From a virus: a DNA stretch of 32,681 bases. The stretch covers positions 1-32,681 of IMG/VR virus record IMGVR_UViG_3300027747_000283, one strand, 5' to 3'. The notes under the pieces were generated by a model, which saw nothing but the letters and a program-made list of their open reading frames with translations, made no database searches and had not been told where the DNA came from. Position 1 is the first letter of the stretch. Every line of letters begins with the position of its first letter. Below, piece by piece: positions 27,645 to 31,369 of the stretch. Both the position numbers and the translations under genes were made by a program.

Positions 27645-28478
27645 TTAGAACATAGATAGAATTTCATCAACCTTGGATTTAACATCCAACCGCACTTCAT
27701 CGAACTTACGTAAATCACCTGCATCTACCCCTACAAGTGCAACCTCCAACTTCTTTCTACATGACTCTAGCTTGGGGTCTGCCGTTACATTTAACCTAGT
27801 AAGCAACTGACACATCTCTACTGCGTTATCTACTAGAGAGTCTCGGAATATTTGTTTCTCATGCCCAGCCAACTTATCACTCATCTTACTTAGGCAATCG
27901 TGTAACCTATTCCAAGCATCTTGCATAGCCGTATTCACTCGTTCTTCGTAGAACTTCTCATACTGAGCCTCCAATTCTTCCTTGTATGTATCGCCTACAT
28001 CGACCCGAAAATCACCAGCACTCGGCACGGGCAAGAATACTGACCTGAACTTAAACTTATCTTGTAGCTTGTGGACATCAGGGTATTCGTCTGAACTGAA
28101 CAAATCACCTAATTGAAAAGCTGCTGCCGATACAAGCGTTGGATACTCGACCAAGAACTCGTTGACACATTCCTCAAACTGCTTCTCCCACGCGTTGAGT
28201 GTAGCTTTATAGTCAAAGAAGTTTGCCATTGGTAACAACCTACTACCACCATCGCTCCAAGGTAAAGTCTGCTCGTAGTGCCAAGTGCGAATACCCGACA
28301 CCAACTTCTGCAACTCGTCTAGCTTTTGCGTACCAGCCAAAAGTTTTTTGTGATAGTTTCCAGCCCTCGCATGAGTGCCTTTGCTTGCATCAATCTCTTC
28401 CGAGACTTTCTTATCCATCTTACGACCAGTCCACACCGAAATGTTTAGGTCAACTAACATCGAACTATTCTGAATCAT
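27645..28478 (-). CDS. Third component of the AAA+/VWA cassette (possibly DUF3150-like)
   Basis: I choose ATG 28478 (277 residues) with GAGGAG seven bases upstream; a TTG 18 bases earlier overlaps that site. The protein is soluble and mostly helical: 'NISVWTGRKMDKKVSEEID' at the N-terminus, 'GNYHKKLLAGTQKLDELQKLV', 'FDYKATLNAWEKQFEECVNEFL', then 'FLPVPSAGDFRVDVGD' and a C-terminal coiled coil. A protein of this type between a MoxR/CobS-like ATPase and a VWA protein recalls the DUF3150 gene in similar trios on integrative elements, as I remember them. Identity to DUF3150 cannot be verified here. Confidence 0.55.
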   Translation of the reverse strand: MIQNSSMLVDLNISVWTGRKMDKKVSEEIDASKGTHARAGNYHKKLLAGTQKLDELQKLVSGIRTWHYEQTLPWSDGGSRLLPMANFFDYKATLNAWEKQFEECVNEFLVEYPTLVSAAAFQLGDLFSSDEYPDVHKLQDKFKFRSVFLPVPSAGDFRVDVGDTYKEELEAQYEKFYEERVNTAMQDAWNRLHDCLSKMSDKLAGHEKQIFRDSLVDNAVEMCQLLTRLNVTADPKLESCRKKLEVALVGVDAGDLRKFDEVRLDVKSKVDEILSMF

Positions 28479-28590
28479 GCTTGCTCTCCTCAACAATATT
28501 AATTAACTGTTCTAACTTTGGCTTCAAGTAGTCGTCATAATCTGACTCATCCGCCAACCTCTCACTCAACTCCACAATGAATTTAATCAT
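28465..28590 (-). CDS. 41-aa small acidic protein
   Basis: An ATG at 28590 with GAGGAG about six bases upstream opens a 41-codon frame, 'MIKFIVELSERLADE', then 'SDYDDYLKPKLEQLINIVEE', ending 'SKHDSE'. It overlaps the start of the next gene by 14 bases. It is acidic and helical. The leader carries one copy of the repeated dyad (28610-28623), the same set-up as before the AAA+ gene, which supports that it is translated. Confidence 0.65.
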   Translation of the reverse strand: MIKFIVELSERLADESDYDDYLKPKLEQLINIVEESKHDSE

Positions 28591-28609
28591 TTAATTCTCC
28601 TCACTTTTA

Positions 28610-28623
28610 TGAACAACTGTTAA
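28610..28623. promoter_or_regulatory. Dyad copy C in leader of the 41-aa gene
   Basis: TGAACA-AC-TGTTAA on the + strand (one mismatch in the 6-bp dyad). On the - strand it is followed within 20 bases by GTGAGGAG and the ATG at 28590. The sequence is nearly identical to copy B before the AAA+ gene. Confidence 0.6.
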
Positions 28624-28627
28624 TAAA

Positions 28628-29836: not shown

Positions 29837-30107
29837 GCTCTTTACCTCCCTCTTCATCTTCGTCAAACTTGTTATTGAAATCGGTCTTGGCATCTAGCAC
29901 ATCATACTTAAACGCTTCTGCCATACGGCTATATACCGAACGCATCTCGTCAAAAGTCTCGCCACCTACTGTTGCTTTGCAATACCCACATGGCTCATCT
30001 TTGTCGTTGTAATACACTTCGGATATTTCGTAGTAATGCTCGGTAACTTCTTCATCTTCAAACATATACTTAATTGTTTCTTTAACTACTCGATTGTTCC
30101 AATGCAT
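29829..30107 (-). CDS. Small acidic phage protein (YYEISEVYY motif)
   Basis: This 92-residue protein has AGGAGAG upstream of ATG 30107. 'EHYYEISEVYYNDKDEPCGYCKATVGGETFDEMRSVYSRMAEAFKYDVLD' follows a pattern (Y-E-I-x-E-V-Y-Y, then G-E-T-x-x-E-M) I have seen in short phage proteins of unknown role. The end is very acidic ('FDEDEEGGKEHE'). It lies between the KOW/SH3-like small gene and the VWA gene, with an 8-base overlap to the latter. Confidence 0.7.
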   Translation of the reverse strand: MHWNNRVVKETIKYMFEDEEVTEHYYEISEVYYNDKDEPCGYCKATVGGETFDEMRSVYSRMAEAFKYDVLDAKTDFNNKFDEDEEGGKEHE

Positions 30108-30116
30108 CTCACTCTC

Positions 30117-30311
30117 CTATTTGTTAACACTTGTTAATAAAACATCAAACGCTGGGTCAATCGGGGTCATGCTTTCTTTACGAATCATACTAGCCATAGG
30201 GTCGCTACTTTTAAATCGCACTAGACTAAAATCTTTCATAAAGTTATACATCTCTACTCTACCGATTCCCCTACCCTCAACCATTACCCAATCGCCTTTT
30301 AGAATAGCCAT
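30117..30311 (-). CDS. Small SH3-like protein of unknown function
   Basis: I start at ATG 30311 (64 residues), which overlaps the last codons of the AAA+ gene; an ATG 18 bases earlier is possible. 'MAILKGDWVMVEGRGIGRVEMYN' followed by 'FSLVRFKSSDP' looks like a small KOW/SH3-type beta barrel of the 'G-D-x-V ... G-x-G-x-V' kind. The last codons overlap dyad copy D. Function is unknown; placement between AAA+ and VWA genes is suggestive only. Confidence 0.6.
   Translation of the reverse strand: MAILKGDWVMVEGRGIGRVEMYNFMKDFSLVRFKSSDPMASMIRKESMTPIDPAFDVLLTSVNK
30124..30137. promoter_or_regulatory. Dyad copy D: TTAACA-CT-TGTTAA
   Basis: A perfect 6-bp dyad in the last codons of the 64-aa gene, 16 bases before the ATG at 30107, and preceded on the - strand by the same TTTA run seen in copies B and C. 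Confidence 0.6.
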
Positions 30312-31369
30312 TGGTTCTTCAATGCCCAATCCTTGAAGTCGCCATTCTGCACAACGAATGATTGTTTGTTGGACTTCATAACGCTAGTCGCAAACAACGC
30401 TTGCCACTCCATATCCATACGCTTGGCATAGGTCAACCACTTAGATAGAGTTTCTTTCTCCACCCTAGCAATAGCACTAAACACTAGAATACATTTAGCC
30501 ACAGTATCGTCAGGCATCTTAGCCGTAGCTGGGTTTGCAATCACCGCATCCCATGTTGGTAGCTTATCCACCACAGTAAAGAACGCTTGCATATCTCGGC
30601 TTGCCGATTCCCCGATTGTTCCTGATAACAAACTGATGGTAAGAGAGTCACCCAATCTTTCACGCTGTTTAGCAATATGACTAGCCTTCTCCAATGACCG
30701 AGGAGTCACCACCGCATTTTGCCCCGCTTTTGTTGGATTGAAGATATACGGATTGTCCTTCTGACTTGGGTCTGTATAACTTGCCAACGCATGAGGAAAT
30801 TGTTTCACCCACGCAATAACTTCGGGAGCGATATCATTCTTCAATGCCCACTCAATCCATTCATCATAATCAGGCTTTCGCACCTTGACCTCACAGATAC
30901 GATTACGGGCATGAGCCTCCAACATATCGCCCACCCCATCACTCGTTAAGTTAGAAGTGCCAAACACATAAGAGCCTTTCGGTAAGTAGTTATCACCAAC
31001 CCTATGCTCCAGCATGAGAGTCAATAGCACATTCTTCACCGCTTTCATGGCTTTGCCAATCTCATCTAGCATGACAATCACAGGCTTACCACTATGCATC
31101 TTGAACCTAGCATTAGGAGCAAACTTAGTGACCTTCATATCTCCAACCACTTCGGTATACGGCAACGCAAAGTCACCCAAGTCCAACAAGGTGCAATCTA
31201 TATATGCAACCTCATAATCGGGATACATATGTTGCAACACCTTTAGCATTGATGATTTACCAATTCCGGGTTCCCCTCGACCAATGATAGTGACATCTTT
31301 ACCTACAGTCCCAATCGAATGAGCGAACTCGGACAACGACACAGAACTTCCAAAGTCAATAACTGACAT
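30299..31369 (-). CDS. MoxR/CobS-like AAA+ ATPase
   Basis: I start at ATG 31369 (356 residues) with AGGAG six bases upstream; the in-frame TTG before it is inside the spacer. 'IIGRGEPGIGKSSML' is Walker A and 'VIVMLDEIGKA' Walker B, with 'YVFGTSNLTSDG' as sensor 1 and 'NRICEVKVRKPDYDEW' after it, the layout of MoxR/CobS-type ATPases. Residues 45-75 ('VAYIDCTLLDLGDFALPYT') also fit that group. These ATPases work with VWA proteins to remodel or insert metal into a target. A DUF2201-like VWA gene follows in the same operon. It is the first gene after the perfect promoter at 31443-31471. Confidence 0.88.
   Translation of the reverse strand: MSVIDFGSSVSLSEFAHSIGTVGKDVTIIGRGEPGIGKSSMLKVLQHMYPDYEVAYIDCTLLDLGDFALPYTEVVGDMKVTKFAPNARFKMHSGKPVIVMLDEIGKAMKAVKNVLLTLMLEHRVGDNYLPKGSYVFGTSNLTSDGVGDMLEAHARNRICEVKVRKPDYDEWIEWALKNDIAPEVIAWVKQFPHALASYTDPSQKDNPYIFNPTKAGQNAVVTPRSLEKASHIAKQRERLGDSLTISLLSGTIGESASRDMQAFFTVVDKLPTWDAVIANPATAKMPDDTVAKCILVFSAIARVEKETLSKWLTYAKRMDMEWQALFATSVMKSNKQSFVVQNGDFKDWALKNQWLF

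Follow-up and report, generated by a model that had tools for sequence, protein, structure and literature searches.

A probable early operon for a MoxR-type remodelling machine of three predicted subunits, with relatives in phages and plasmids

The virus record IMGVR_UViG_3300027747_000283 is a sequence of 32,681 bases from a freshwater phage (the whole of which is referred to here as the window) and carries, at the upstream end of a minus-strand gene block (27645-31369), genes for a MoxR-like AAA+ ATPase, a protein with zincin and VWA domains, and a helical protein resembling DUF3150. These three genes, the trio, probably constitute a single operon, expressed early, that encodes a three-subunit AAA+ remodelling machine of the MoxR type. 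Comparison of related sequences shows that the same genes occur together, in different orders, across phages, prophage-like islands and plasmids. The ATPase/VWA pair is already known, and it is the third partner and its linkage that are new; the three-gene module did not come up in our literature searches. The three genes are as follows.

27645..28478, minus strand: DUF3150-like helical protein, 277 aa, the third component; best start ATG at 28478
28628..29836, minus strand: zincin/VWA protein (DUF2201_N plus DUF2201), 402 aa; from Pfam, residue conservation and a fold model
30299..31369, minus strand: MoxR-like AAA+ ATPase, 356 aa; from Pfam, PHROGs and residue conservation

An earlier reading made from the sequence alone (the sequence-only reading) had called the first gene product a MoxR-like ATPase, and the assignment holds: the protein scores 27 bits against Pfam AAA_5 (curated cut-off 22) and matches phrog_1297 ('ATPase') with an E of 2e-54. 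In protein numbering it has Walker A GEPGIGKS, Walker B LDE, sensor 1 N140 and sensor 2 R224, with R157 as the arginine-finger candidate. Among the 148 distinct ATPases left after removal of proteins shorter than 290 aa and of duplicates, the Walker A Lys is kept in 146 (the other two are gapped there), the Walker B Asp, sensor 1 Asn, R157 and sensor 2 Arg are present in all 148, and the Walker B Glu is replaced by Asp in 26. These elements (Walker A and B, sensor 1, arginine finger and sensor 2) make up a predicted active AAA+ core, and the pairing of the gene with one for a VWA protein, used here as a mark of the MoxR type, is present. An NCBIfam search with the ATPase (E up to 0.1) gave only ClpB at 0.06, and one with the VWA protein gave no match, with the presence of CobS/CobT, CbbQ/CbbO and NorQ/NorD models in NCBIfam left unchecked.

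The second protein had been described as DUF2201-like with both an HExxH motif and a complete VWA metal site, and all of these are present. Its start was placed at ATG 29836 because homologues begin at that point, and it scores 98.6 bits against PF13203 (cut-off 23.2) and 51.5 bits against PF09967 (cut-off 26.4), which places it in the family. The HExxH motif lies at residues 72-76 (H72-E73-H76) and is accompanied by conserved H81, N97, D101 and N105, and the metal-ion-dependent adhesion site (MIDAS) is complete (D282-x-S284-x-S286, T346 and D370). In a predicted model (mean predicted local distance difference test score, pLDDT, 79.8) residues 271-402 match the VWA domain 6snk_B over 131 residues (VIA-align Z 12.3, root-mean-square deviation 2.5), as expected of a VWA fold. 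When proteins shorter than 320 aa and duplicates were taken out (247 rows to 232 to 176, with 175 counted), the MIDAS Asp and both Ser were intact in 175/175, and the Thr and last Asp were absent only in rows gapped there, apart from a single Thr to Ser change (L214). The zincin residues follow a different pattern. On phage contigs HExxH and D101 are each intact in 123/123 rows and H81 in 122/123; the HExxH motif is lost in two plasmid rows (L127 and L128), two genome rows (L233 and L236), all four of which have a DUF3150 gene, and in phage V5. Proteolysis therefore cannot be the universal function of the trio, and the conservation points to a constant motor and metal grip, with peptidase chemistry that can be dispensed with beyond the phage contigs. 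The more probable role of the zincin half is structural or in targeting, with catalysis kept in some cases. A true metalloprotease, in which the HExxH domain would cleave a protein of the host while the ATPase serves as unfoldase and the DUF3150 protein as adaptor, would agree with the conserved HExxH, D101 and H81 of the phage copies, but the five losses alongside a retained MIDAS Asp and Ser leave it improbable. In V5 the VWA gene (rv5_gp012) is on the opposite strand, ~3.6 kb from the ATPase gene, and the motif has become HGxxH.

Many phage homologues of the VWA protein carry a different name: phrog_1314 is labelled 'HNH endonuclease', and of 60 listed phage homologues 35 are so named and another four are called 'homing endonuclease'. 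Pfam searches of three of the homologues (N4 gp25, EcP1 and PA5oct) found no HNH domain and instead matched the DUF2201 domains. By these domain matches the name is a propagated mis-annotation, an error that the present comparison brings to light. We also note that P-SSM2 gave no match to the VWA profile.

The third protein had been read as a long helical protein that may be DUF3150-like, and it is DUF3150-like by sequence, at a level below formal PF11348 membership: it matches PF11348 with an E of 4e-4 and 20.2 bits, under the curated cut-off of 24.9, while among 15 homologues seven reach an E of 0.01 or lower (the best 3e-8). The predicted model is mostly helical with a C-terminal bundle (mean pLDDT 76.6, predicted template modelling score 0.51). 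Foldseek and VIA-align searches with it returned only generic helical bundles and nothing at E 0.001; a search of a viral library gave eight matches at E <= 0.001, of which the top one is named as DUF3150 domain-containing and the rest are uncharacterised or unnamed. Sequence searches of solved structures with profiles of all three proteins yielded nothing relevant.

Linkage of the three genes was examined from several starting points, counting only loci with room for the partner genes. With the DUF3150 protein as the sole query 80 viral loci were kept, and both MoxR and VWA genes are present in 43/43 with at least 4.5 kb upstream (37/80 had no room). With the VWA protein as query a DUF3150 gene is present in 37/37 loci with downstream room (11/48 excluded), and in a wider VWA-profile search in 25 of 29 (49/78 excluded). 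The order MoxR-VWA-DUF3150, that of the window, is seen in 89 of the 123 sequences first scanned (a set in which some loci share part of a contig and short ones are truncated) and DUF3150-MoxR-VWA in 25/78 of the wider set. Plasmids and cyanophage MinM2 have the order MoxR-DUF3150-VWA. This synteny is far beyond chance. The sequence-only reading had been staked on MoxR and DUF2201 profile matches and on linkage in relatives, and both were found.

It had also supposed that similar sets ride on mobile elements, which is borne out by trios on plasmids and in genomes. A tblastn search with the DUF3150 protein matched 44 of 72,556 plasmid records, 39 of them in genera that are, or in some cases that we take to be, members of the Burkholderiales. 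In the plasmid regions that were opened MoxR, DUF3150 and VWA genes are contiguous, with the exception of Simplicispira, which has small genes between them. Of the 43 loci that a plasmid-centred VWA profile picked out among genome contigs, 31 have DUF3150. Of 36 plasmid or genome trio loci, 19 have a homologue of VirB4 of type IV secretion nearby, 13 PRTRC ThiF, three RecT and two a phage-like polymerase and primase; the neighbour queries were drawn from trio loci and the window, and the zero among 13 pair loci is therefore biased. In chromosomes DUF3150 is rare, with matches in 2/398 genomes of the phylum (one being the search centre and one weak at 6e-4) and in 3/399 genomes of the order (one again the centre). 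Over these ~800 genomes, searched with DUF3150 only, there are four strong matches, two of which are search centres, and each has MoxR and VWA genes beside it; the weak 6e-4 match has no such flank within the 3.2 kb covered.

The proposal that the genes lie in one transcript with tiny genes between them is likewise upheld. The relevant features are listed below.

31443..31471, minus strand: perfect sigma-70 promoter TTGACA-17-TATAAT, 74 nt upstream of the MoxR ATG
30117..30329, minus strand: small open reading frame (ORF), 70 aa, overlapping the MoxR gene end; relatives in 27 loci
29829..30107, minus strand: small ORF, 92 aa, phrog_21321 (unknown function), overlapping the VWA start
28465..28590, minus strand: small ORF, 41 aa, overlapping the DUF3150-like start; weakly conserved, in eight loci

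The 70-aa product had no family match in Pfam or PHROGs searches, and between the trio genes of the window no terminator-like site turned up. The promoter is the only perfect one in the window; shuffled windows have 0.025 on average. In relatives we counted promoter matches of at least 11/12, taking one copy per distinct 150-nt upstream segment and only genes with 300 nt upstream. Where the order is MoxR-VWA-DUF3150 there is a match ahead of 49/66 MoxR genes, 0/72 DUF3150 genes and 0/73 VWA genes; where it is DUF3150-MoxR-VWA, the matches are ahead of 12/19 DUF3150 genes and 0/24 each of the MoxR and VWA genes. Gene-interior controls gave 0/99. The 62 distinct phage loci examined span 978 kb and contain 47 perfect promoters, of which 28 precede the first trio gene found by no more than 300 nt. 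The promoter thus stands before whichever gene leads, MoxR or DUF3150, and not before the inner ones, which argues for a single operon; host RNA polymerase would read such a promoter, hence early expression. A single transcription unit, predicted to be read early by the host enzyme, is supported by these counts.

Among known systems the closest is gp24/gp25 of Escherichia phage N4, with its homologues in Schitoviridae. In N4, gp24 is homologous to the window ATPase (23% identity, E 4e-15) and gp25 to the zincin/VWA protein (24%, E 9e-22), and the two are adjacent and in the same order; the window differs in having two small ORFs between the two genes. They are core genes of N4-like phages, as ATPase and vWFA protein (PMC4193335, PMC7650795). 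In PMC4193335 both are described as middle transcripts, gp24 is given as unknown, and gp25 is named by its vWFA domain alone. Our literature search found no function for either in the text available to it, no paper under DUF3150, and DUF2201 papers that by title are not about function. MoxR-vWA neighbours are noted in haloviruses (PMC7911831), and in jumbo phages a MoxR-vWA-metallopeptidase pair resembles that of the window in comprising two proteins with an N-terminal metallopeptidase domain; the accessible text (PMC7824862) does not mention DUF3150. All three components are adjacent on Burkholderiales plasmids with PRTRC and type IV secretion genes, where the set differs in its order (MoxR-DUF3150-VWA), in lying beside transfer genes and in the occasional loss of HExxH, and is annotated only as ATP-binding, hypothetical and VWA-like. 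Synechococcus phage MinM2 and Planktothrix phages Pag-Yong1 and Pra-JY27 carry a DUF3150 homologue (~26% identity); in MinM2 the full trio was confirmed, in the plasmid order and with small genes between. More distantly, RavA-ViaA, CbbQ-CbbO and other MoxR-VWA pairs combine an AAA+ ring with an adaptor of the VWA-MIDAS kind to remodel or modulate a complex. These pairs have host metabolic targets, and we know of none with a zincin domain or a DUF3150 partner.

From such families a mechanism can be sketched. The ATPase would form a ring, the VWA metal ion would grip an acidic group on the target and couple it to the ring, and the helical DUF3150-like protein, as third subunit, would recognise the target or dock the adaptor. 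Since DUF3150 is kept in trio elements yet absent from the tested N4-like, V5 and jumbo relatives, an adaptor specific to the target is its most plausible role. The most speculative step concerns the target, which could be a protein complex of the host, or one for replication or transfer, that is encountered once the DNA has entered. We lean only tentatively to such a complex over the virion, because of the host-type promoter and because the module is common to lytic phages and conjugative plasmids. A bolder version, which we regard as possible and somewhat less probable still, is that the machine is made right after DNA entry to dismantle a host complex, either one acting on incoming DNA or an immune one, with the zincin half a target-gripping pseudo-enzyme in some lineages.

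Narrowed to counter-defence, the machine would dismantle or inactivate host immune complexes on entry. This would explain its sharing by lytic phages and conjugative plasmids and fits the early-type promoter, but we consider it unlikely. Counter-defence genes tend to be patchy. The core status of the N4 pair in N4-like phages is unusual for genes of that kind. Far less probable is a defence encoded by the phage or plasmid itself against competitors, akin to the MoxR-vWA ternary conflict systems, which share the layout of MoxR, vWA and a third protein (PMC7159879). The window VWA protein ends with its VWA domain and has no fused effector, its ATPase reaches just 12.7 bits against bpMoxR (cut-off 27), and PADLOC models gave no convincing match to the trio (best E 0.023 and 0.022). 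Takeover, defence, counter-defence and a chaperone for a virion or replication complex had all been offered in the sequence-only reading; of that interpretation the protein assignments and the link to mobile elements stand, a role confined to the virion has become less probable given the early operon and the plasmids, and the suggested defence role gained nothing from the PADLOC search.

A shared remodelling machine with a target outside the virion has to be weighed against a number of contrary points. The main ones are that the PA5oct ATPase record carries an electrospray tandem mass spectrometry (ESI-MS/MS) flag, which suits a virion role, and that a role in virion assembly has been proposed for the jumbo-phage pair, which has the same domain architecture, citing a report on the MoxR-vWA pair of the archaeal Acidianus two-tailed virus ATV (PMC7824862). 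Such a chaperone, with the ATPase and zincin/VWA protein folding and cleaving virion proteins, would also agree with the intact HExxH of all phage-contig copies and with the extra virion-protein genes near gp24/gp25 homologues reported for a roseophage (PMC4193335). Against it are the trios on plasmids, which build no virion, the host-type promoter, the distance of the trio from the plus-strand virion genes, the description of the N4 pair as middle transcripts and the loss of HExxH in some members; we judge it an unlikely account of the trio, on a par with counter-defence. Further points weigh against the shared machine. The phage-contig conservation of HExxH means that proteolysis may matter in phages; the phage rows share ancestry, so that the promoter counts are not independent; and the plasmid and genome contexts come from Burkholderiales-centred searches. 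A fusion of two trio components was looked for and none was seen. The DUF3150 profile A4 finds no such gene in the pair records EcP1 and nACB1 (both N4-like), V5, PA5oct and pSYSA (0/5), although its six positive records are all rows of A4 and hence no independent control, and N4 itself was not searched with it; a six-frame search with the Pfam DUF3150 model missed known positives, and its zero was not used. Four pair-only phage contigs inside the trio clade (L158, L159, L163 and L178), all with room, have no nearby DUF3150 gene with a rebuilt profile at E 10. The third subunit would so be dispensable in some lineages. On a tree of 101 VWA proteins there are nine trio/pair changes against a shuffled mean of 20.0, with labels that depend on flank length and gain indistinguishable from loss. 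One of the pair records, Synechocystis pSYSA (L124), has the ATPase/VWA pair without DUF3150 near toxin-antitoxin-like genes and a CyRepA1 replication gene.

The shared early machine nonetheless ties the N4 core genes gp24 and gp25 to a module that also rides on conjugative plasmids, and is a testable hypothesis. N4 is a laboratory phage of E. coli, and CRISPRi-ART knock-down has already been used on it, so the pair is directly testable; the transcriptome-wide screens in the same source used T4, T5, SUSP1 and PTXU04, and not N4 (PMC11879866).

The remainder of the window is laid out as follows.

1 to 13 kb, plus strand: virion-type genes
~13 kb to the record end, minus strand: primase, helicase, exonuclease, DNA polymerase and sigma-factor-like genes
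31477..32424, minus strand: neighbour gene of 315 aa

The 315-aa neighbour is present in 98/173 phage trio loci and 0/36 plasmid or genome trio loci, and is a companion of the phage lineage outside the core module. Of the two larger genes behind VWA in the four pair-only contigs, which were aligned, the first resembles it by eye only.

Palindromic elements are found ahead of several genes, and three are associated with the trio.

31392..31405, minus-strand reading: TTAACAGTTGTTCA, in the MoxR leader
30124..30137, minus-strand reading: TTAACAAGTGTTAA, before the unit of the 92-aa ORF and VWA
28610..28623, minus-strand reading: TTAACAGTTGTTCA, before the unit of the 41-aa ORF and DUF3150

The palindrome TTAACANNTGTTNA has 14 matches at eight sites in the window, against 1.7 expected (24018, 25983, 28610, 30124, 31392 and 32445, and also 22023 and 27080), mostly in the early minus-strand region and in several instances directly ahead of gene starts. 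In relatives (e.g. L026 and L064) there are as many as 14 sites, a good number of them at gene junctions, and the palindrome often takes the form TTAACAGGAGTTAA with a Shine-Dalgarno-like AGGAG inside. The element is a putative operator or RNA hairpin.

Two other genes of the window are of note. A plus-strand gene at 7143-13139 codes for a 1998-aa protein with the Large Polyvalent Protein domain LPD39 (E 5e-12); it adjoins a transglycosylase gene, and the product is perhaps an ejected internal virion protein. At 24709-25284 is a gene for a protein of 191 aa that has a sigma-70 region 4 (E 2.5e-17) and whose N-terminal part looks helix-turn-helix-like by eye; this protein may direct later phage transcription. 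Finally, Herminiimonas and Janthinobacterium contigs (L230 and L231) carry the trio together with relatives of the polymerase, helicase and exonuclease of the window phage, a gene content that is a possible hint of hosts in the Oxalobacteraceae or nearby.

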